This document shows positions 411-12,400 of a stretch of 64,000 nt of DNA, piece after piece; position 1 is the first letter of the stretch, and each line of letters opens with the position of its first letter. The stretch is from Aureliella helgolandensis (GTDB taxonomy: Bacteria; Planctomycetota; Planctomycetia; Pirellulales; Pirellulaceae). The stretch lies in the NCBI RefSeq assembly GCF_007752135.1, contig NZ_CP036298.1:8176501-8240500 (forward strand), given 5' to 3'. Under the pieces are notes generated by a model that saw only the letters and a list, made by a program, of their open reading frames with translations, did no database searches and was not told the origin of the DNA. The translations under genes and the position numbers were made by a program.

Positions 411-1742
411 CTAAAACCAATAGACCCATGAAATCAAAAACTCACCCCAAATGCAGAGCATCCACCAGTATACACCGACTCCCTGCAACACCCTCCAACG
501 CCGCGGAGTGCGCCGCCAAGGCACAAGTACGACGAGCAAAATCAAAGCGGTGAAGACGTGGACGGCGTGCGCAGTGGTCAATAGCAGGCAGGTGGACGCC
601 CACCTCCGCCCTCCAGGAATACAAACCGGCAAACGCAACCAAGGATAATGCCGATTGAGCCCGCCTTGCATGGGTACCAACTGCTCGTGGAACTCCTGCC
701 GTGTCTGAAGCGCCCGCTCCTCGTTCCTTGCTTCCAGCTTGGCCGCTCCCGCCGATGTGGCAAGCATTGCCGCTCGCGCATAATCTTCCTGACTGCGATC
801 CCTGTGCTCTTTCGGCATCTCCTCTTGGACTTGGCGTGCACGGTGCATTGCCTCGACCGCTCGCTTCTCATCCGCATCTGCGGCCCGCTGCCGTTGCTGC
901 GTGAGTTGAAGCGATTCTCGAATCCCCTGCAACTCCAGTGTTCGATAGTGTTCGGCGACCTCTCGCTGTGCGGGTAGGCCAGAAATATCGAATGCCAGAG
1001 TTGTCATGGCCATCTGCTGCACAGCAGCATCCGCTTGCTTACCGACCACATCCTCAGTCCATCCCACCGCTCCACTGAGCAACGCACTCACGACAGCCTG
1101 ACGTTGGCCTCGCATGTCAACCTCCGCCGCCAACTTCGCAAATTCTGTCCGAACCGAGGAAGCCTCAGTCGATTCGCGATGCCCTTCTCGCTCCACAACA
1201 CTCTCTGCAGGGCTAGACAGTTGCATCTCCAACTCCCCCATCCGTACCGTGGCTTCACTCAACTCCGCATTGAGTTGCGTCAAACGCTCCTTGACTGCCG
1301 ACAAGTACCTGGTGTCGGGCCGATCGTACAAAACGCGTTGAGCGGCATTGGCTATGAGATTATGAGCCCACTGATTGTAGGACTCGGCCCCTCGAGTCCC
1401 TAAATAAAGGCTCCCCAGCAGCAATGTCAAAGCCAACCAACCCCGCGTTGCAGCAACGGCCTCCCGGCTTGCGGCGCGTAGCGTGGCCAACAGGGTCGCT
1501 CCAGAACCGAGGAGAGACAGTCCGCCCAACGCACCCATCGCTACCACCACGTGCATGTCGCTTGGATGTGGCCAATCCCCAGAGGGTGAAGCCCACCGCA
1601 CCCCAACACAACCGGCGACCAAACTGGCTAAGAACACAATCTCCGCAAGCAAGAACAAGCCAAACACTACCCCTCCACGCGACAGCGGCAGGCCTGGCTG
1701 AAACTGCAAGTCTGGCGAGTTTGTTTCGGAGGGAGATACCAT
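411..1742 (-). CDS. Cytochrome c oxidase subunit III-like protein with large coiled-coil insertion
   Basis: 443 residues, against roughly 200-290 for usual subunit III. Transmembrane segments lie at about 26-50 (with the conserved helix Glu, E34), 63-90 and 101-118 (ending GTRGAESYNQ, like the canonical ...LQASEYYE). Two more lie at 381-408 (containing TTAHAVHV, like canonical FHGLHV) and 415-443 (ending WGEFLISWVYWF). These match the last five helices of COX3. Between the third and fourth helices, where COX3 normally has a loop of about 15 residues, there are about 240-260 residues rich in Ala, Glu, Gln and Arg with heptad-like stretches (about 145-180, 250-350), predicted coiled coil. By COX3 topology this loop is periplasmic. 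Subunit III binds no metal, so the family call rests on helix similarity and operon position. The gene lies 64 bp after ctaB. Confidence 0.75.
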   Translation of the reverse strand: MVSPSETNSPDLQFQPGLPLSRGGVVFGLFLLAEIVFLASLVAGCVGVRWASPSGDWPHPSDMHVVVAMGALGGLSLLGSGATLLATLRAASREAVAATRGWLALTLLLGSLYLGTRGAESYNQWAHNLIANAAQRVLYDRPDTRYLSAVKERLTQLNAELSEATVRMGELEMQLSSPAESVVEREGHRESTEASSVRTEFAKLAAEVDMRGQRQAVVSALLSGAVGWTEDVVGKQADAAVQQMAMTTLAFDISGLPAQREVAEHYRTLELQGIRESLQLTQQRQRAADADEKRAVEAMHRARQVQEEMPKEHRDRSQEDYARAAMLATSAGAAKLEARNEERALQTRQEFHEQLVPMQGGLNRHYPWLRLPVCIPGGRRWASTCLLLTTAHAVHVFTALILLVVLVPWRRTPRRWRVLQGVGVYWWMLCIWGEFLISWVYWF

Positions 1743-1806: not shown

Positions 1807-2772
1807 TTAGCGAATCCAGTAGGACAGCAGGATCAACAACATCGTCAACGGTAGGTGCAACAGACTCACGTGCAACATGCGGCGAGCCGTTTTCATATCT
1901 GGTGCCCGCACAAAACGAATGGCGGCTACCGTTTGCCACAGAGCGACTGCTACCGCACAAACCGTCAACAGACTGGCGAATAAACCAACCGGTGGCACGG
2001 ACAACACCGCCAGCACGATCAGCGCCAACGATCCTAAAATGGCATGCCAAGCAGCACCTCGCCCAGAGGGATCGGTGACTGTAATCATCTTGTAGCCAGC
2101 CGCCGCATACTGCTCGCGGTACATGTAGGCAATCGCCATAAAGTGGGGAAGTTGCCAAGCCACCACCACGCCCAACAGAATCCAGGCGCGAACATCGATG
2201 AGCGATCCCTCCGCCGCCGTCCATCCCATCCAAACCGGCAATGCCCCGGGGAGAGTGCCAACCAATGTATTCGTCCAACTCAACATCTTGAGCGGCGTGT
2301 ACACCCAGACGTAGAGTCCCCAGGTAGCCAAGCCGCACCACATCGTCGGCAAATTGACGAACACTGCTAAATAAACGGAACCCACCAGCACTAGGACCCA
2401 GCCCATACCTGCCGCTTGACTAGAGGCCACGTTCCCACTCGGTAGCGGGCGACGGCAAGTGCGATTCATCACCGCGTCGCGATCCCGCTCCAGCCACTGG
2501 TTCATCACACTGGCGCTCGCCGCCACAAGTGCTGTCCCCAGACAGGCATGGAACGCAACCCACATGGAGACGGAATTGCCAGCAGTGACCATCGCCATAA
2601 TGACCGTTACCAGGATCATGACTAAGATCCGTGGCTTGGTCAATTCAATATAGTACGACAGCCGACCACGCGCCGCTGGGCTGGCCACAGCACCTGCGAC
2701 CGACCCGAGTACGACTGGCGAAGAACCTGCCTGATTTGTAGTTTCCACTTTTACATTCACCTTAGTATTCAA
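1807..2772 (-). CDS. ctaB: Protoheme IX farnesyltransferase (heme O synthase)
   Basis: UbiA-type polytopic prenyltransferase that adds a farnesyl group to heme b to make heme O, in the cytoplasmic membrane. 321 residues. The prenyl-diphosphate/Mg binding motif is at about N91-T105 (N...D97-R-D99...MNRT, followed by RRPLPSG). The second typical segment is about YTPLKMLSWTNTLVGTLPG. Eight to nine hydrophobic segments follow an unusually long polar N-terminus of about 35 residues. It sits between ctaA and the cox3-like gene in the operon. The signature residues look intact, in contrast to the neighbouring oxidase subunits, so the enzyme is probably functional and may serve oxidases encoded elsewhere in the genome. 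Confidence 0.93.
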   Translation of the reverse strand: MNTKVNVKVETTNQAGSSPVVLGSVAGAVASPAARGRLSYYIELTKPRILVMILVTVIMAMVTAGNSVSMWVAFHACLGTALVAASASVMNQWLERDRDAVMNRTCRRPLPSGNVASSQAAGMGWVLVLVGSVYLAVFVNLPTMWCGLATWGLYVWVYTPLKMLSWTNTLVGTLPGALPVWMGWTAAEGSLIDVRAWILLGVVVAWQLPHFMAIAYMYREQYAAAGYKMITVTDPSGRGAAWHAILGSLALIVLAVLSVPPVGLFASLLTVCAVAVALWQTVAAIRFVRAPDMKTARRMLHVSLLHLPLTMLLILLSYWIR

Positions 2773-2822: not shown

Positions 2823-3854
2823 TCACCGATGCTTGCTTAACGCACGCGAAACAGCCTCCGAAGCCAATATTGCCCCGTAACGCTTGGTGGAGGAACGCCA
2901 AGCTCGCAACGCCGTCAACGTCGCCAAACTAACAATCAACGAGCCGGTGGCCATATGGGCCGTCACAATGAAACTCTCCCAATAGCCCTTAGCTAGAATC
3001 GTATAGCCTGCCAACGATTCTGTCACTTCCGGCCACGGTAACGCATAGTTTACGACCCAAGTCCCAATTCCCAAAACGATTTGTACGAGCACCAACAGGG
3101 CTAGGACGTACACCGGCCGCCTAACGGCTCCCGGCGGAAGACGCGACAGACCGACTACGGCAAATAATGCCACCGTTAACAGGAAGACTAGGGCCGCCAA
3201 ACTCAAATGAGTGTGCACATACCCCATAAACGCCCGGTTGCTCATCGCCCCCGTCACATGCCGCAATTGGGCCCCCATAACGAGCTGCAAGTAGCTAATA
3301 ACCACTAGGCTGGTAGACAATCTTACTCCCCACGGACCTGTCCGGCGTGGTGCCCCTAGCTCGCGGACGCGCCACCAACGCGAACTCATGACCGCCGTGG
3401 CCGTGGCAATTGCGAAGAACAATGGCCCGGTGCAACCATGGATCATGGCAAACGTACGTTGATCGAACAGGACGCGAGCCCCCCCCAAAGCCCCTTGGGC
3501 GATGATCGCCAACAATACGCCAGCACACCACCAGCGGAACCACCGTCGCTGCTCCCAAGCCCAAGCCGCTAACAGCAGCCCTATGGACAAGAACCCCGCC
3601 AAGGACGCGAGCAGCCGATGGCTATGCTCGACGAGCAGGTCAAAGGGGCCGTACAACCAAGTCGAAGCGGGGTAGGCGAACATATTCCAACCGTAGGTCC
3701 CCGGCCAATCGGGGACAGCCATCCCAGCATCGTAGGTCGTGACGAGTCCCCCCACCCAAATCAAAGGGAAAACGGAAATCGTCAAGACCACGGCTAGAGC
3801 GTGAACGATCCGACTGTAGCTGTTGGAACTCTCGTGAGTATCGATCTTGGTCAC
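2823..3854 (-). CDS. ctaA: Heme A synthase, COX15/CtaA family
   Basis: 343 residues with about eight membrane helices. Converts heme O to heme A by oxidising its C8 methyl group. Landmarks: GGLVTTYDAGMAVPDWPGT at about 35-53; EHSHR at 76-80; GALGGARV at 121-128; MIHG with H139; QLVMGAQLRH at about 190-199; VHTH with H214/H216; VTAH with H300. The paired histidines expected in the two four-helix halves are all present, so the enzyme looks intact. Its start overlaps the end of the cox1-like gene by 4 bp, indicating translational coupling. Keeping a heme A synthase beside a subunit I that has lost its heme ligands is odd and is discussed in the findings. Confidence 0.93.
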   Translation of the reverse strand: MTKIDTHESSNSYSRIVHALAVVLTISVFPLIWVGGLVTTYDAGMAVPDWPGTYGWNMFAYPASTWLYGPFDLLVEHSHRLLASLAGFLSIGLLLAAWAWEQRRWFRWWCAGVLLAIIAQGALGGARVLFDQRTFAMIHGCTGPLFFAIATATAVMSSRWWRVRELGAPRRTGPWGVRLSTSLVVISYLQLVMGAQLRHVTGAMSNRAFMGYVHTHLSLAALVFLLTVALFAVVGLSRLPPGAVRRPVYVLALLVLVQIVLGIGTWVVNYALPWPEVTESLAGYTILAKGYWESFIVTAHMATGSLIVSLATLTALRAWRSSTKRYGAILASEAVSRALSKHR

Positions 3855-5593
3855 CCCATCACCTCCGGTGCCTCTGAGTGTGCAACCGTTTCCAGCCCGC
3901 CCTGCCCACTGGCCAAACGCCCGCCGGGCGGTTCCGTCTGTGGCTGAAAGTCGCGTGGATGGGCTGGATTACCGTACTGGTACGCCCCTCGATAAACCCA
4001 CGGCTGGAAGTCGAAATTGCCGCGGCCTGGGGGACTAGGTGCAGCCCACTCTAGGGTATTGCTATTCCAAGGATTGCGCCCCACCCGTTGCCCCCAGAAT
4101 ACACTGCAAAGGAAGTTGAGGATGAAGATCAACTGGGATGCCATCGTCGCCAGTACACAAATTGCGATCACGCGATTCAGCGGGAGAATCTGCGTCGACA
4201 ACTCGTAACGGTAGGAGTCCACATACCCTCTCGGCAGACTGCCGCCCCCTAACAAGTGCGTCGGAACGAAAGCACCTTGGAGAAAGACAAAGGTCAATGC
4301 AAAGTGGACTTTGCCCCAAAACTCACTCATTTGCCTACCGAACATCTTAGGGAACCAAAAATAGATACCCGCAAAAAAAGCCATCGCCATCACACCCGCC
4401 AAAGACGCCATGCCATAAACTCCCTGCGAGTAGGCAGTCTGCATCCCAACATTGGGCGTGGTTAGTATTCCCCAAACTGCTGCCAGCCCCCCCAGCGTAA
4501 ACAGGGAAATAAACCCCAGCGCAAACAGCATGGGCGTTCGAAATTCAATCCGCCCACCCCACAGCGTAGCCAGCCAATGAAAAACGTGCACTCCGCCTGC
4601 GACCAACATAGCACCAATTGCGATGCCCAACGAAAATTCGCCGATTCGGCTCTCTCCCCACACAACTACACGCTGCACCACAACCAACACCCCCAAGCTC
4701 GCGATGCTCCAACTCAATAGCACTAATGCCCTGTAGCCGAACAACGATCTCCGTGAAAAAGTGGCGATAACATCACTGATCATTCCCAGCGCCGGCAAGA
4801 AGATGATGCCCAGCATCGGATACGCAAGAAGCTCATTCAACTCCTGCCAATGCAGTGGTTGCCCACTCTCTGCATGTCTCGCAGCGCTATTCGAAAAATA
4901 AGAATCTGCCCAATAAAAGCTCGTCCCAAGCAAGGCATCCACCAATTGCATCGCCGCACCAACGACCAACACCGGCCAGGTGAAGAGTTGTAGAATTGCC
5001 GCCGAGAACAAGCCCCAAACGGTCAGAGGCATGCGAAACAAAAACATCCCAGGCGCACGACACTGTGCAATCGTAGTGATAAAATTGACCGACACCATCA
5101 GCCACGCAAGGCCTGCGCATATCAGGCCCACACACCACAACCATTGCGTCGCTTCTCCAACCGACCATTCACCCAAGATCGATTGCAACCGAATCCAACT
5201 CTCGCCTGGAACGGCTACATCATGCAACACCGTGGAATGGGACATCACGGCGTATGGCATCATCGCCTGCGGAACAAGCATGCCCGCTGCGACTAGCAAG
5301 AAAGCAGGCCACAGCAGCCAATGAGAAACGAGGCTCAGCGTGGGATACGCCAAATCATCCGCACCGATCATGAGCGGAATAAGGTAGCTCCCCAAGGCGC
5401 CCGACAGAGCCGGGATGGCCACAAAATAAATCAGAATCGGCGTTTGTTGAGTCGCCCATGCCAACGTCCCACCCACGAAGAACCAAATCAAACTCGAGAA
5501 CAAAAATTGCAGCCCCACCGTCTTATGATCCGTGGCCAGCACGTACGTTGTTACCACATCGCGGATTCCCCCTAAAACACGTTGAGCACTCAC
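3851..5593 (-). CDS. Cytochrome c oxidase subunit I homologue lacking all heme and CuB ligands
   Basis: 580 residues, about 12 membrane helices, full-length relative to COX1. Homology is clear in DHKTVG (22-27), LIPLMIGADDLAYP (71-84), VNFITTI (169-175), LPALGMIS (266-273), VFHWLATLWGG (337-347), ALGFISLFTLGGL (358-370), GKVHFALTFVF (427-437), LPRGY (453-457) and the C-terminal NPWNSNTLEW ... APSPP motif typical of aa3/caa3 subunit I. Aligned from memory to bovine COX1, largely without gaps, the ligands are replaced: heme a H61>Q50 and H378>M395, heme a3 H376>Y393, CuB H240>Y258, H290>Q307 and H291>R308. The cross-link Tyr244>G262, Glu242>M260 and Lys319>H336. The D-channel entrance Asp91 is kept (D80). 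There are no stops or frameshifts, so this is not simple decay. It cannot reduce oxygen by the known mechanism. The real function is unknown. Confidence 0.88.
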   Translation of the reverse strand: MSAQRVLGGIRDVVTTYVLATDHKTVGLQFLFSSLIWFFVGGTLAWATQQTPILIYFVAIPALSGALGSYLIPLMIGADDLAYPTLSLVSHWLLWPAFLLVAAGMLVPQAMMPYAVMSHSTVLHDVAVPGESWIRLQSILGEWSVGEATQWLWCVGLICAGLAWLMVSVNFITTIAQCRAPGMFLFRMPLTVWGLFSAAILQLFTWPVLVVGAAMQLVDALLGTSFYWADSYFSNSAARHAESGQPLHWQELNELLAYPMLGIIFLPALGMISDVIATFSRRSLFGYRALVLLSWSIASLGVLVVVQRVVVWGESRIGEFSLGIAIGAMLVAGGVHVFHWLATLWGGRIEFRTPMLFALGFISLFTLGGLAAVWGILTTPNVGMQTAYSQGVYGMASLAGVMAMAFFAGIYFWFPKMFGRQMSEFWGKVHFALTFVFLQGAFVPTHLLGGGSLPRGYVDSYRYELSTQILPLNRVIAICVLATMASQLIFILNFLCSVFWGQRVGRNPWNSNTLEWAAPSPPGRGNFDFQPWVYRGAYQYGNPAHPRDFQPQTEPPGGRLASGQGGLETVAHSEAPEVMG

Positions 5594-6561
5594 AGGGCAC
5601 CTCGCGTGGGGAAACTCAACAAGGTTGGAGCAACTGCTGGCCGAGCATTTGAGACTCCGCCGTTCGCCTCAGGAACATCATTGACTTGCAGAAATGAAAC
5701 TCCCACGGCAAAGCGCTGGGCTTCTGCGGCGGTTGAAAACTCGCGTTGATACTGCTGCAACTGCAGACGCTGTAGATAGGCTCGATGGTCTTCCGCAGTT
5801 TCCACCATCAGTCTGCCTACGACGCGATAGTAGGCCTGTGGACGCTGCTCGCAACACACCACTTCGTAAGCCCCCATTTTCGAGGCGGAAAATCGTGCCA
5901 ATTGCACCCTTCCGGGGACAAGCTTGCACGTCAATCGCAGTGCAGGCACGCTCAAGTACTGCACAGCCTCCTCCGCTTTCAACGCGACCAGGGACGTCTC
6001 ATCGACTGGGACATGCAATTCGTTGACCTCTCCCAGCACGTCATCCGTAGTACCGAGCCGCTGATCTTGGCCAGCATACCGAACGCGCCACTCGAATGGG
6101 CGTCCCAGCACTTCGTACTGAGGTGATTCGTACTGAGGTGATTGCGGCTGGCCTTCCGCGGCACCAGCTGGACCGCCGCCAGCCGTGCTGAGCCAAGCAG
6201 CATTGAGATCCCAGCGAGCTTGGAGGGAAACCGCCAACAGGCCGATTAGAGCCACTGTGGGAACTACGGTCCACACCGTCTGCAGCCCACGATGGCCGTG
6301 TATGTAGCGAGCGGGCTGGGGATTGTGGGCCGCGTCAAATTTCCACATCAAACCGAACAAGGCAACTCCTACCGCCACGAATGCCAAACCAACCAGGGCA
6401 AATGCCACGACCTGCAAAGCCTCCGCTTCGTCGGCGAGGGAATTGATGTTCTCAGGCAGCCATCGCACAACGACTCCATTACCGGCTAGCCAGCTAGCTA
6501 AGCAACACAGCGTCCCCCAGACGGGAACGGCCAAGAACAATAAACTCCAAAATCTACCCAA
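5590..6561 (-). CDS. Cytochrome c oxidase subunit II homologue with degenerate CuA site
   Basis: The reading frame is open to 6720, but that would overlap the upstream gene through a 16-bp tandem repeat. A TTG at 6561-6559 preceded by AAGGGA is the better start, giving 323 residues; TTG 6591 is an alternative. Two N-terminal membrane helices are followed by a cupredoxin-like domain: FEWRVRYAGQDQRLGTTDD, then LHVPVD, then AVQYLSVPALRL, then YEVVCCEQRPQAYYRVVGRL, which aligns with the usual CuA loop ending CGLGHYRMRG. Numbered from TTG 6561, the CuA ligands become H>Q201, C kept (C236), Glu kept (E238), C>R240, H>Y244 and M>V247. A binuclear CuA centre is therefore not expected. It overlaps the cox1-like gene by 4 bp. 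Family assignment is firm; the electron-transfer role is probably lost. Confidence 0.85.
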   Translation of the reverse strand: MGRFWSLLFLAVPVWGTLCCLASWLAGNGVVVRWLPENINSLADEAEALQVVAFALVGLAFVAVGVALFGLMWKFDAAHNPQPARYIHGHRGLQTVWTVVPTVALIGLLAVSLQARWDLNAAWLSTAGGGPAGAAEGQPQSPQYESPQYEVLGRPFEWRVRYAGQDQRLGTTDDVLGEVNELHVPVDETSLVALKAEEAVQYLSVPALRLTCKLVPGRVQLARFSASKMGAYEVVCCEQRPQAYYRVVGRLMVETAEDHRAYLQRLQLQQYQREFSTAAEAQRFAVGVSFLQVNDVPEANGGVSNARPAVAPTLLSFPTRGAL

Positions 6562-6587
6562 CGCTTTTCCCTTGAAAGTTCGCCGAC

Positions 6588-6635
6588 CCAATGTACACAG
6601 AGCCCAATGTACACAGAGCCCAACGTTTACAGAGG
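6588..6635. repeat. Three tandem 16-bp units at cytochrome c / cox2-like junction
   Basis: Units at 6588-6603 and 6604-6619 are identical (CCAATGTACACAGAGC); the third at 6620-6635 is diverged (CCAACGTTTACAGAGG). The array spans the stop codon of the cytochrome c gene (6627-6629) and lies just before the likely start of the cox2-like gene. The unit is not a multiple of three, so copy-number changes would shift any frame through it. This argues that the long 5' extension of the cox2-like frame is not coding. Confidence 0.85.
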
Positions 6636-7946
6636 TGGCTGCTCTGGTGGAGACGAATCGAATGCGGCCTGCGACAGGGGCTCGTAGGGTAGGCTCAAGA
6701 TGTAGTTGACTAGGTCCCACACATCCCCCTCGGTCATCCCCTGCGGATTGGCGGGTTGCATGGCCGCAGCTGGCATGGGAGTTCCATCAATGCCGTACAC
6801 TATCCGCAGATAGAGATCGATGGGCCGAGAGCCTCCGCGATAAACACCCGTTCGCAAATTGCGAGGGAGCGCATGGCGTGGCTTGAGTCCCCCCAACTTC
6901 AACATAGGGGCCAAGTCATCTGGCTTTTGAGGGTCAATGCCTACGGAGGTCGTCCACTCCTTCGTCCACTCGTCATAGTCGCCGAGCTGCCCGTCCCCCA
7001 CAGCGGTCGCACCGTGGCAGGTCGCGCAATTGGCAATCTTGCCATGGTAGAGCTCGCGTCCATGTGCCACAGAGTCGGCGAGTCGCTGTTGCATCTGCGA
7101 CGTCCCGTTATTATCGCGGCCCCACAGCGGATAGTCATCCGGGGGCCCCTCCACGACTACCGCTTCATCGTTGGCCTCCAGCCAACTATCGGCCACGTCC
7201 ACAACGCACCCCTGAATCACCTCCCACTGCGAATCGAAGGCAGCTGGATCGGTCACTTTGAGCGCCGGATCGTAGAGCCGCTCGCCCGCTTCAAAATCGA
7301 GCTCAAAGGCAGCTTCGTCGATCAGCTTCCGCTCCACCTCGCCGCGGATCGAAAGATAGATCAAGTAATCCAACAGCGCTTCCAGATCCTCCTGCTCAAG
7401 CAGACGAAAGGATGGCATGCTGGTCCCCGAGACGCCTTCATGCAATGTCCGCCACAGGTCGGAACGCGTGGGTTTCTTGCCCAACGGTGTCGATTTGAAT
7501 TTCACCTTCCCCATCCGAAAATCACGGGGATAGGGATTCAAGAAACGGGAGGTCGGGCCGAGTCCATCTCCCGTCACTCCATGGCAATACACGCAATGCT
7601 CGCGGTACAACCCATAATGCACGTCATCCTCATCGCTCCGAACCGGCCCAGCGGCGCGCTGCAAACGCTCCGGCAACACCAGCTCGGAATAGGCTGGCTC
7701 AGCTTGCAGCATCTCAGGCCATTTGGGCTCATCGGGGGTTCCAAACAGCTCGGTCAGCACGGCTTGGACATCCGCCTCTGCACGCGGCAGCTCAACCCCC
7801 TCGACCAACTCCATTCGTTTGAGATAAAGCCCGTTGGGCTCAAACGACGCAATGGGCGCGTCACACCCCGCGACGGAAAGGATCGATACGAGGACGCAAC
7901 TAAGCAACCAGCAGCGGCAGTTCGTGGGTACTTCAAACCGATTCAT
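6627..7946 (-). CDS. Diheme cytochrome c lipoprotein of the oxidase-like operon
   Basis: 439 residues. A signal peptide ends in the lipobox SVAGC (C28), so it is probably lipid-anchored on the outer face of the cytoplasmic membrane. It has two class I cytochrome c domains: heme motif CVYCH at 118-122 with a later GTSMPSF segment supplying the Met ligand, and CATCH at 307-311 with GTPMPA as its Met segment. An approximately 100-residue Asp/Glu-rich linker separates them. It is the first gene of the operon, followed after the short tandem repeat by the cox2-like gene. The usual job would be to hand electrons to CuA of subunit II, but that site is degenerate here. The cytochrome domains themselves look intact, so it is the only clearly redox-competent electron carrier of the cluster. 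Confidence 0.9.
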   Translation of the reverse strand: MNRFEVPTNCRCWLLSCVLVSILSVAGCDAPIASFEPNGLYLKRMELVEGVELPRAEADVQAVLTELFGTPDEPKWPEMLQAEPAYSELVLPERLQRAAGPVRSDEDDVHYGLYREHCVYCHGVTGDGLGPTSRFLNPYPRDFRMGKVKFKSTPLGKKPTRSDLWRTLHEGVSGTSMPSFRLLEQEDLEALLDYLIYLSIRGEVERKLIDEAAFELDFEAGERLYDPALKVTDPAAFDSQWEVIQGCVVDVADSWLEANDEAVVVEGPPDDYPLWGRDNNGTSQMQQRLADSVAHGRELYHGKIANCATCHGATAVGDGQLGDYDEWTKEWTTSVGIDPQKPDDLAPMLKLGGLKPRHALPRNLRTGVYRGGSRPIDLYLRIVYGIDGTPMPAAAMQPANPQGMTEGDVWDLVNYILSLPYEPLSQAAFDSSPPEQPPL

Positions 7947-8269: not shown

Positions 8270-11200
8270 TTAGCCACGGATTAACTTCAGCAGCTCCTCG
8301 GTGGTTAGCTTGCTGCTGCGATCGCTGCCCTCTAGTAGACTGTCGGCTAGGTCGCGTTTGGTAGCGTGCAATTCCAAGATATGCTCTTCAATCGTGCCAG
8401 CCAATATCATGCGATAGATGGTTACTGGGCGTTTCTGGCCAATTCGATGCGCGCGATCAGACGCCTGATCCTCAACCGCTGGATTCCACCAGGGATCCAG
8501 ATGGATCACATAATCGGCAGCGGTTAGATTCAATCCAGTTCCGCCCGCTTTGAGACTGATCAGAAAGACATCGCCCTCCCCCGCTTGAAACGCATCGACG
8601 CTTTTCTTTCTCGCGGCGGCGGGCGTGCTGCCATCGAGGTACTGGTAGGAAATCTTTCGTTCATCGAGTGCTTCGCGCACGAGGCTTAAGTGGCCGACGA
8701 ACTGGCTGAAAATCAAAGCCCGGTGATTCCCCTCCCGCAACTCGCCAATCGTTTCGAGAGTCTGTGCCAGCTTGGCAGATTCGACGGTCGACGCGGGCGC
8801 CACCAATTTCGGGTGACAACAGGCTTGGCGCATCCGCATAATCTCACTTAAGACCAGCAGGTGTTTAGGCTGATCGTCTGCCGAGTCCGCCAATTTTTCG
8901 ATCGCCCGCTGCCGCAGCGCTTCATAGAATGCAGATTCCTCCGCACTCGGTTCAATCCGCAGGGTGACCTCAGTGCGTGAAGGCAATTCGGTCAATACTT
9001 GAGCTTTGGTGCGGCGGAGGATGAAGGGGGCCACGAGCCGCTTGAGCCGCTGTCGAGCTGCTCGGTCGTGATCGCGTTCAATGGGAACAGCAAACCGCTC
9101 CTGAAAACCTTCCGCACTGCCCAGCAATCCTGGGTTAATGAAGTCCAGCAGACTCCACAGTTCGCCGAGATGGTTTTCCATCGGCGTACCGGTCAGGATG
9201 AAGCGGCAGTCGGCCACGAGCCGCTTGGCAGCTTGGGAACGTTTGGCGGCTGGATTTTTAATCGCCTGAGCCTCATCGAGAATCAGCGTGGCAAACTCCG
9301 TTTTTCCAATCGGTAGAGACCGCGCCTGCAACAATCCGTAAGAGCAGAGCACAACATCCCCAGCAGCGAGCGACCCCAGCAATTTGCTGCGATTGGAGTC
9401 GGCCAGGATGTGAGGGCGAAGGGTGGGCGCAAAGCGAGTAATCTCATCCTGCCAATTATGGATAACCGAGGTGGGTGCGACGACCATGGCTGGCCCTTGG
9501 GAGGCGCGTTGGAGCAACAGGGCGATCGCTTGCAGTGTTTTCCCCAGCCCCATGTCGTCGGCCAGGCAGCCTCCCACGCCCCATGCCGCCAAACGCATCA
9601 TCCAGTGGACACCTTCGCGCTGGTAGTCTCGCAACTCGGCTTGTAATGTTGTAGGAATTTCGAGGGGAATATCGTCGGCACGCTTCATCCGTTCAACGCA
9701 TTTCTTCCAATGCGTGTCCGATTTGACTTTGACCTCTCCGAAATCTTCAAACAAACCGGCGTGCACAGCCGCGAACCGCAGCTTCCCCTTCGCCGAGCGT
9801 CCGTCACCAAAGGACCGCAAATCTTCGATCCTTGCCCGCAGGTTTTCGGTTAGCGCCAAAAACCGCCCGTCGTCGAGTCGCAAGAAGCGGCCTGACGAGG
9901 CAGTCACCAAATCAATCAACTTCATCATATCCAGGCTAAGTTCGCGATCGAATTTCAGCTCTCCCGAAGCTGCAAACCAATCTCGATCCCGGCGAATCTG
10001 AACTCGCAGCATCGATTCGGTTGCCTGTCCAGCCAACTGCAACGACTTACCTTTAGGCCAGTGCAGCGAGACTTCGTCTGCCTGCTGGAGCGTTTCTAGT
10101 TCTAGGATCGATTCCAAAGCCTCGAATGCAGTGGGAAACACCACGGTCCAGCTGTCGGTCATGTGCGTGGCCAAGACGGGACATCGATCGAGAGCGCTCT
10201 GAGCCTGCTCCTGCTCACGGGGCAAGTCTCGGTTGGCCGATACGGAATCACCGTTGATGGTAGCGAATAACGTCCGGGCGCCCTCACCTGGACGGCACGA
10301 GGGGCCCGCGTCGCCAAAGGGGTGAACATAGAACTCTGCACGCAGTCCCTCTCCGCTCGGCAGTAAGTGCAAATGCAGTCGGGGGCTGCCTTCGACCTTC
10401 TTCGCTGCGGCGAAGGTTGCGGACTCTCCGCCCCCCACCTCGGCTTTACCAGCCTGCAGATCCCCGATTTCCGAGTGCACAGTAACCACCGAAGTCAGGC
10501 GCGTCATCACTTCCAAAACTTTCTCCGACGCCGACACGGGCACCTGCAAGCCGTTGCCCAACATGCCCTGCAATTCGAGATGCGGTGCGTCGTACATGGT
10601 CAACGCGATCTGTCTTGGGCCGGTTTGCTTGATTCCCACCCCACCACCTCTGGGCGGACTAGGTTGCAGAGCGATCTCAATTTGCTCGTTGCCCACATCG
10701 CGCACAACCAAACGCACCGGACTATCAATAATCTCCAGCGGCTGCTCACGATCTTCCGGGGTATAGATCCGCGGATGCCCGATCAGTGCACGCGCGGCAT
10801 ATTTCGTCTCAAACTCGCAATACTCTACCGGGTAACCGTAGGACCCCCTTTCGGTCCAACGACGAAGTGCTTGGCACAGGGCCTGATCCTGTGGGGTCAA
10901 AAACGAGAACGCTGGCTCGCTGTACTGTTGTTGCAGACGCGACAGAGCGATCTTGCGTCCCTTCGACCACTTCGAGCCTTTGCGAACTTGATGAAACACG
11001 TCCAGGGTAAAATTGGTCGCATTGTACCTCAGCTCATAAACCAACCGATCAGTAGGCTCATCACTGGCATCCGCTGACTGGCTGGCCGCTGGACCACCAC
11101 CGAGCCGCGTTAGCGCCTCCAGTGTCAGCGCCCAGGCTGGTTCCGGCTTGACGAACTCAATTAGACTCGCCGTTCCCAACTGTTGATGCAATTCTTGCGA

Positions 11201-12400
11201 AAGCTCTCGTTGCTGGGAGGCTGTGGCGAGTTGTGAGCGTCCGGCCAATCCGCAACATTCTGCGGCGAGCCACAGGCAGCCCCCCGCCCGCAGGCCGCTG
11301 CCTGCCTCGACGAGCCCACTGATACCGCTCTCGATGTCCTCTTCTTGAGTCAACCAAGCCTGCAGGTAGCCCGCAACCCAGTGCTGCAGCGGCGTTTCGG
11401 CGAGCAGATTTAGATCCAAGACCAATTTGCTCGGCTCGTTGGGTGATTGCATAAAACTCAGTGCCCGTTCGATCATCCGAAACGTCCCCAAGTACGGAGT
11501 GCGACCGCGCTGCGCCAGACTGGCCGCTTGCGATGCCTTATCGACTTTCAGGCTATGGGCTGGCGAAAAAGCGGATAACAACGCCAACAATGACGGCAAG
11601 CCACCAAGTCTGGTGAGCGTCTTTTTCGACTTGCGATTGGAGAGTGTGGCGGAAAGCAGTTCGAACGCTTGGTCCCAATCCCCCTCGAGCAACCGCAAAC
11701 AGCCCTCGACATCTCGAAACGGCACGCGTTGGGTCAAAACCAACTTTCGTAGCAGTTCGAGATTCCCCGAGGCGACCGCCCACTCCAACAAGGCTGGTAA
11801 AAAATCGGTGTGCAGCTCCGCATCACTTTCTACCAAGGCGGCGAGTCGCTCGACTGGCAGGGGCTCGGTCTTGCCGAAGGCTATCCATCTGGGAATTGCG
11901 AATGCGAAGTACTTCTGCTGAAACTCCGCCGAGAGCCCATCAAAGGCGGCTTCCTCGAACGGGAACAGCAAGGGAACGCATCCGGGAACCAAGTCGGACA
12001 CGTACCGGTGGAACTTATCCGCGTCTTGCCGATAGAAGGACATGTAGAAATCGAGGAGGTCATCCCTGCGACTCCATAAATGTGCGGGCTCAGCGATCGC
12101 CGCAAAGTCCTCGTAATTCTCCCTGCGCATCGCATCGCGAATCAGCAAATCAAATAGCGGAGCGACCGGCTTCCGAGTCGACGGGTCGACCAAACCAATC
12201 CTGACCCATTTTATCATTTGCAAACGGACAAAGTCTTGCGTCAATGGCAAGTCGGAGTCGTTGCACACCGCAAGCTTCTGGGCCAACTCCCAAAGATCAC
12301 GATAGCTGTGCGTGGAGTGTTTGAAGACCAGTAGCTGCAGGAGCGTTTGGGATGTCTGGTCCAGATTCTGATATTTTTTTAGGTATTGTTGCATGACCAC
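8270..12400 (-). CDS. SNF2/HepA-family DEAD-like helicase (very large N-terminal part)
   Basis: 1376 residues. The C-terminal 450-480 residues form a complete SNF2 ATPase: Walker A region DDMGLGKTLQAI, box Ia VVAPTSVIHNW, box II LDEAQAIKNP (DEAQ rather than DEAH), box III LTGTPMENHLGELWS. These are followed by motif V SLKAGGTGLNLTAAD and motif VI DRAHRIGQKRPV. Such enzymes use ATP to move along or remodel DNA-protein complexes; bacterial members are linked to transcription recycling or repair. The first roughly 900 residues are helical and Leu/Ala-rich with no catalytic motif recognised; planctomycete homologues often have such extensions. ATG 12394 is an alternative start two codons in. It is transcribed toward the oxidase-like operon but separated by 323 bp. 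Confidence 0.92.
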   Translation of the reverse strand: MVMQQYLKKYQNLDQTSQTLLQLLVFKHSTHSYRDLWELAQKLAVCNDSDLPLTQDFVRLQMIKWVRIGLVDPSTRKPVAPLFDLLIRDAMRRENYEDFAAIAEPAHLWSRRDDLLDFYMSFYRQDADKFHRYVSDLVPGCVPLLFPFEEAAFDGLSAEFQQKYFAFAIPRWIAFGKTEPLPVERLAALVESDAELHTDFLPALLEWAVASGNLELLRKLVLTQRVPFRDVEGCLRLLEGDWDQAFELLSATLSNRKSKKTLTRLGGLPSLLALLSAFSPAHSLKVDKASQAASLAQRGRTPYLGTFRMIERALSFMQSPNEPSKLVLDLNLLAETPLQHWVAGYLQAWLTQEEDIESGISGLVEAGSGLRAGGCLWLAAECCGLAGRSQLATASQQRELSQELHQQLGTASLIEFVKPEPAWALTLEALTRLGGGPAASQSADASDEPTDRLVYELRYNATNFTLDVFHQVRKGSKWSKGRKIALSRLQQQYSEPAFSFLTPQDQALCQALRRWTERGSYGYPVEYCEFETKYAARALIGHPRIYTPEDREQPLEIIDSPVRLVVRDVGNEQIEIALQPSPPRGGGVGIKQTGPRQIALTMYDAPHLELQGMLGNGLQVPVSASEKVLEVMTRLTSVVTVHSEIGDLQAGKAEVGGGESATFAAAKKVEGSPRLHLHLLPSGEGLRAEFYVHPFGDAGPSCRPGEGARTLFATINGDSVSANRDLPREQEQAQSALDRCPVLATHMTDSWTVVFPTAFEALESILELETLQQADEVSLHWPKGKSLQLAGQATESMLRVQIRRDRDWFAASGELKFDRELSLDMMKLIDLVTASSGRFLRLDDGRFLALTENLRARIEDLRSFGDGRSAKGKLRFAAVHAGLFEDFGEVKVKSDTHWKKCVERMKRADDIPLEIPTTLQAELRDYQREGVHWMMRLAAWGVGGCLADDMGLGKTLQAIALLLQRASQGPAMVVAPTSVIHNWQDEITRFAPTLRPHILADSNRSKLLGSLAAGDVVLCSYGLLQARSLPIGKTEFATLILDEAQAIKNPAAKRSQAAKRLVADCRFILTGTPMENHLGELWSLLDFINPGLLGSAEGFQERFAVPIERDHDRAARQRLKRLVAPFILRRTKAQVLTELPSRTEVTLRIEPSAEESAFYEALRQRAIEKLADSADDQPKHLLVLSEIMRMRQACCHPKLVAPASTVESAKLAQTLETIGELREGNHRALIFSQFVGHLSLVREALDERKISYQYLDGSTPAAARKKSVDAFQAGEGDVFLISLKAGGTGLNLTAADYVIHLDPWWNPAVEDQASDRAHRIGQKRPVTIYRMILAGTIEEHILELHATKRDLADSLLEGSDRSSKLTTEELLKLIRG

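Follow-up and report, generated by a model that had tools for sequence, protein, structure and literature searches.

Why should the frame for a cytochrome oxidase subunit I (COX1) stay open after every histidine that binds its hemes and copper has been replaced? The ligands of the heme-copper oxidases are among the best-kept residues in biology, and the loss of all six with the frame still open, as seen in Aureliella helgolandensis, is unexpected. The gene lies in a 64,000-nucleotide stretch, here called the window, from a genome consisting of one contig of 8.44 Mb.

The operon and the identity of its COX1

A preliminary description of the window had placed an open frame for a COX1 homologue at 3851-5593. 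The open frame and its homology hold, but the frame is on the minus strand; the plus strand over 3851..5593 is interrupted by stops. The features of the locus are as follows.

coxA-like, 5593..3851, minus strand: COX1 lacking all six histidine ligands, 580 aa, GTG start
coxB-like, 6720..5590, minus strand: COX2, four of six CuA positions lost, listed start GTG
cytochrome c gene, 7946..6627, minus strand: two CXXCH motifs
ctaA, 3854..2823, minus strand: heme A synthase, the genome's sole PF02628 match
ctaB, 2772..1807, minus strand: heme O synthase, the genome's sole TIGR01473 match above cut-off
coxC-like, 1742..411, minus strand: COX3-like ends, long variable middle insert, conserved C-terminal motif altered
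overlap of coxB stop and coxA start, 5590..5593, minus strand: GTGA, 4 bases
overlap of coxA stop and ctaA start, 3851..3854, minus strand: GTGA, 4 bases

The order cytochrome c-coxB-coxA-ctaA-ctaB-coxC is that of the caa3 operon of Pirellulales, and a Shine-Dalgarno-like GGAGGTGAT lies inside the final codons of coxA, ahead of ctaA. The listed GTG start of coxB falls within the cytochrome c gene, and its product resembles relatives only from about residue 53 onward, which places the probable true start near 6564. The coxC genes of the window and of the congeners G010, G012 and G005 carry a long, variable, coiled-coil-looking insert between the first and last membrane segments, which is shorter in the canonical G029 and G015. 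Upstream of the operon (8270-12400, minus strand) is a 1376-aa frame that by eye resembles an SNF2-type helicase.

The coxA product matches the Pfam COX1 model PF00115 far over its cut-off (E 3.5e-68, 230.9 bits) and scores 329.8 bits against TIGR02891, under that model's cut-off of 670.75. Solved A-type COX1 chains (Paracoccus 1ar1, M. tuberculosis 8hcr and bovine 1occ) are homologous to it over most of its length, aligning to approximately residues 16-533; these three we take to keep all metal ligands, as is also seen by alignment for two of them. Judged from its sequence, the protein is by descent a member of the heme-copper oxidase superfamily, with homology to COX1 along its whole length. 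Foldseek matches of a structure model were COX1 chains (TM ∼0.60-0.68). The model itself was poor (pLDDT 51.8, pTM 0.56), as was that of a canonical control built from an alignment of the same kind (62.9 and 0.73), and the Foldseek outcome therefore adds little.

Loss of metal and proton sites

At the positions of bovine H61, H240, H290, H291, H376 and H378 the window COX1 has Q50, Y258, Q307, R308, Y393 and M395, respectively. These residues align with the ligand columns of canonical relatives, confirming that the six histidines are absent, and the cross-linked Tyr244 has, as proposed, also gone, its position being occupied by Gly. The Mg pair is lost, H368 and D369 are replaced by Q and T, and R439 by G, while R438 is kept. 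The Glu242 gate is missing too, but its absence is uninformative because Ala stands at this position in 80/80 aligned canonical orthologues. The D-channel Asp, D80 (bovine D91), is kept as described, but the proton paths carry the changes N80S, N98S, S157W, S316G and K319H.

The damage extends to COX2. At the six CuA-site positions the window protein reads QCERYV, where 77/77 canonical orthologues have HCECHM; H161, C200, H204 and M207 are lost and C196 and E198 kept. The hallmarks of a functional A-type cytochrome c oxidase (six histidines, Tyr244, the CuA site, and the D and K proton paths) are thus not found intact. As the known ligands are gone, and with them most of CuA, the window COX1 is expected to bind neither heme a, heme a3 nor CuB, in agreement with the earlier proposal, and the view that it is redox-silent is well supported.

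The check proposed for a second, canonical COX1 in the genome gave a positive answer. Two further COX1-family proteins each retain six histidines: one, encoded at a separate locus, is aa3-type and looks, from the reading frames around it, like part of an operon resembling alternative complex III plus an aa3 oxidase; the other, of 783 aa, is presumably cbb3-like by its motifs. The genome's single CtaA match and single above-cut-off CtaB match both lie in the window operon, and we infer that they serve the separate aa3 oxidase.

Distribution among relatives

The named relatives, taken from the 80 best entries of a longer list, are Pirellulaceae and other planctomycete MAGs. G010, which is likely to be the sister species, shares the gene order of the window operon and whole-length COX1 homology, and retains all heme, CuB and CuA ligands, in contrast to the 0/6 COX1 histidines of the window. 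Canonical coxA and coxB with every ligand kept are also found in the congeners G003 and G012. Ligand loss in the window is therefore derived, and an old non-catalytic family is ruled out by the finding that the nearest relatives detected are canonical. Ligand-bearing close relatives had been named as a case that would refute the first proposal, by pointing to recent decay or a sequencing artefact; this case applies in part. Orthologues at ∼44-54% identity are canonical, with the exception of G005.

Whether orthologues consistently lack histidines had been put forward as a check, and they do not. Of 137 distinct segments with at least 45% identity to the protein of G010, among them loci from the window's own genome, 24 were incomplete and were dropped; in the other 113 all six columns could be read, and 107 of these were distinct by core. 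Six histidines are present in 103/107 of this set, which is not random as 20 stretches and 14 genomes in it were picked as outliers. The four degenerate proteins are those of the window (QYQRYM), G144 (HHQPHH), G133 (HRHQDH) and G359 (LHHHSP). A fifth, from G005 (YH--HH), stands outside the count because its H290/H291 segment is missing. The four relatives resemble the window protein in combining an open frame with ligand losses, but each has lost a different and smaller set, which in G144 comprises H290/H291 only, and the G359 protein is fused to COX3. The CuA-site positions read RCESHA in G005 and HFEWAR in G359; a coxB match beside coxA was not found in G133 or G144. Among the 14 genomes re-examined as order-level outliers by E-value, one (G359) is degenerate; the other 13 have histidine in all ligand columns covered, many being cut at contig ends.

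Several of these loci have features of their own. In G359 the COX1-COX3 fusion is a single 908-codon frame with ligands partly lost (L224, 5142-7865, plus strand), and no CtaA match was found in this 93% complete MAG. In G133 (L163, 7528-11301, plus strand) the degenerate coxA lies between a cytochrome c gene and a 634-codon frame that looks membrane-bound, and ctaA does not adjoin it. In G050 a caa3 coxA is split over two frames (L182, 6598-8440, plus strand), either because the gene broke recently or because the sequence is in error.

Within the genus of 15 genomes, coxA and coxB are canonical in G003, G010 and G012 and degenerate in G005 and the window, whereas ctaA has one match in every genome. 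In the other ten, the surroundings of ctaA contain cytochrome c, ctaA and ctaB, while coxB, coxA and coxC gave no match there at E 1e-4, although two of the contigs measure just 4.9 and 7.0 kb; elsewhere in these ten genomes, several of which are incomplete MAGs, no caa3-clade COX1 was found. G013 carries a COX1 of another clade (L173). As ten congeners lack the genes, close relatives can do without the product. In a tree built from cytochrome c, ctaA and ctaB, the window groups with G010 (support 86) and the ten coxA-less congeners form one weak clade (42), while the COX1 tree places the window with G005 (93; perhaps long-branch attraction). A single loss may underlie both the window and G005, and the coxA of G010 may have been replaced by transfer. 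The series of intact, partly lost, fully lost and missing genes in one genus makes it possible to ask which parts of COX1 matter without chemistry.

Constraint on the protein and possible roles

Between the window and G010, identity is 66.5% for cytochrome c, 68.5% for ctaA and 71.3% for ctaB, but 49.7% for coxA and 47.7% for coxB. The COX1 branch is 1.05 long in the window and 0.066 in G010, whereas in the cytochrome c, ctaA and ctaB tree the two branches are similar (0.28 and 0.27). Four-fold sites are nearly saturated (30.7% identical over 140 sites against 25.9% by chance; distance ∼2.0, lower bound ∼1.3), and despite this the frame remains open across 580 codons. When codons of G012 or G003 were evolved neutrally to the observed identity (six settings of 200 runs), only 2/1200 runs were stop-free for the window and 1/1200 for G005. 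The BLOSUM scores of the window changes, -0.14 and -0.17, compare with means of -0.40 to -0.49 for stop-purged neutral runs; in every setting they match or surpass the best of the 200 runs. New charged residues number 13 against neutral means of 24.4-30.3. In G005, charge and hydropathy depart from the simulation in the same direction, while its BLOSUM scores (-0.37 and -0.40, simulated -0.39 to -0.46) indicate changes no more conservative than neutral. These statistics support the view, put forward at the outset, that selection maintains the window COX1, apparently still as a membrane protein. A plain pseudogene is disfavoured by the open frame, the conservative changes and the stops in almost all neutral simulations; neither a broken frame nor a neutral substitution pattern was found in coxA. 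Its combination of lost catalytic residues and apparent protein-level constraint is that of a pseudoenzyme.

Constraint in the window COX1 is concentrated in the cytoplasmic half and the C-terminal tail. Retention was scored at 273 sites that at least 95% of the 80 canonical orthologues share, each assigned to a side by what we take to be the bovine helix borders; the window keeps 106/141 cytoplasmic and 52/132 periplasmic sites (P=2.6e-9). The corresponding figures are 101/141 and 49/132 in G005 (P=9.4e-9), 116/141 and 78/132 in G133 (P=3e-5), and 115/141 and 84/132 in G359 (P=0.001); the milder case, G144, displays no side bias (132/141 and 119/132; P=0.37). With ligand sites excluded and nine choices of border and mid-plane, the worst P values were 3.5e-5 (window), 2.3e-7 (G005), 0.001 (G133) and 0.048 (G359). 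The 80 defining orthologues, pooled as a control, lack bias (losses 108/11254 and 104/10556). Among 15 further canonical COX1 picked as outliers, loss was greater on the cytoplasmic side (P<0.05) in five (L164, L165, L166, L168 and L179) and on the periplasmic side in two (L171, P=0.049; L172, P=0.015), with no side difference in eight, the two most distant (L169 and L173) included. Three of these (L164, L165 and L166, from G097, G150 and G148) have all COX1 ligands but a diverged cytoplasmic side, in which R or S stands in place of D91 and the motif of the C-terminal tail is gone; in this they are the reverse of the window protein. In coxB no difference in conservation was evident between the membrane part and the CuA domain.

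Conserved tail sites are kept at 16/17 in the window against 142/256 in the rest of the protein (P=0.0015), and at 16/17 against 134/256 in G005 (P=0.0006); G133 and G144 each keep 15/17 and G359 10/17. Working outliers mostly retain the tail as well (12/15 keep 12-17 of the 17 sites; 3/15 just 7-9). Tail identity between the window and G005 is 66% compared with 38% elsewhere; in the working pair G012 and G010 the corresponding values are 74% and 88%. At four-fold sites, identity to G010 is no higher in the coxA tail (7/20) than elsewhere (36/120), showing that the tail constraint acts on the protein; nucleotide-level constraint at the coxA 3' end was not seen.

Comparison of the predicted proteins establishes descent from a functional caa3 oxidase that sister species retain, ligand loss and constraint at the protein level. 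What the constraint serves is a matter of probability. We consider it about an even call, or slightly better, that the protein is a redox-silent remnant of a caa3 oxidase, probably still made, and kept for contact of its cytoplasmic face with a putative partner. The window COX1 would be made, folded and inserted in the membrane, its kept cytoplasmic face would provide a scaffold or docking surface, and oxygen would be reduced by the genome's other oxidases, with ctaA and ctaB supplying the separate aa3 enzyme. Of the new jobs suggested for the subunit, a scaffold or assembly platform is possible, and a new job in general plausible. Counting against a kept function are the disappearance of the genes from ten congeners, the lack of bias in G144 and in coxB, and the retention of the tail in most working orthologues, as well as its partial loss in G359. 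The side bias could also mean that folding alone remains selected. A credible but less probable account is slow decay before deletion, in which caa3 became redundant beside other oxidases and coxB, coxA and coxC are vestiges without benefit, their frames staying open because coxB, coxA and ctaA overlap, ctaA is needed and a misfolded membrane protein is harmful. The GTGA overlaps and Shine-Dalgarno-like site upstream of the sole detected CtaA, the ten congeners that retain cytochrome c, ctaA and ctaB alone, the split coxA of G050 and the five lineages at different stages all fit decay. Coupling alone, however, leaves amino acids unprotected, yet the side bias and tail are kept at the protein level, and in simulation 6-9 stops on average had already arisen by ∼0.2 neutral substitutions per site. 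Moreover, neither G133 nor G359 showed ctaA next to coxA, so coupling to it cannot explain the open frames there; this, the simulations and the tail constraint disfavour a frame kept open for polarity alone. Contact through the cytoplasmic face is ranked slightly ahead of decay because decay explains the ten gene-less congeners, but does not easily explain the kept side and tail or the open frames of G133 and G359.

The remaining explanations carry far less weight. A protein still redox-active through other ligands at a rebuilt site is improbable; two of the 12 histidines of the window COX1 are new in helix VIII, but none of the 12 lies in a ligand column, CuA is damaged too and the ligands that have gone from the other degenerate lineages are different ones. 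Ion or proton conduction in the absence of redox chemistry, also among the roles first envisaged, appears more improbable still. It would fit the kept D91 position, but among what we take to be the proton-path positions (eleven, of which 309 and 315 are doubtful) 6/9 conserved sites on the cytoplasmic side are lost in the window against 29/132 others there (P=0.008), with similar preferential loss in G005 (P=0.016) and G359 (P=0.001), though no significant excess in G133 (P=0.2). A sequencing or assembly artefact can practically be dismissed, given the single-contig genome, changes that run through coxA, coxB and coxC yet leave the frames intact beside normal neighbours, and other degenerate versions in four further genomes.

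Proteins that keep a fold after losing catalytic residues, in one case repeatedly, are exemplified by pseudoenzymes and pseudonucleases (PMC5106787, PMC8097288); the examples there are soluble or RNA-binding, unlike the membrane-embedded COX1. No description of a ligand-free COX1 was found in the literature searched, which largely excludes subscription journals. We suggest, tentatively, that several Pirellulales lineages independently turned the caa3 core into a metal-free membrane scaffold whose functional part is the cytoplasmic face and tail, a non-catalytic branch of the heme-copper oxidases. That the cytoplasmic half stays while the heme half goes suggests either that the cytoplasmic face has a role so far unrecognised or that folding constraint is cleanly separable from catalytic constraint. 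As the window protein scores far over the Pfam cut-off, terminal oxidases should not be counted from COX1 family matches alone.
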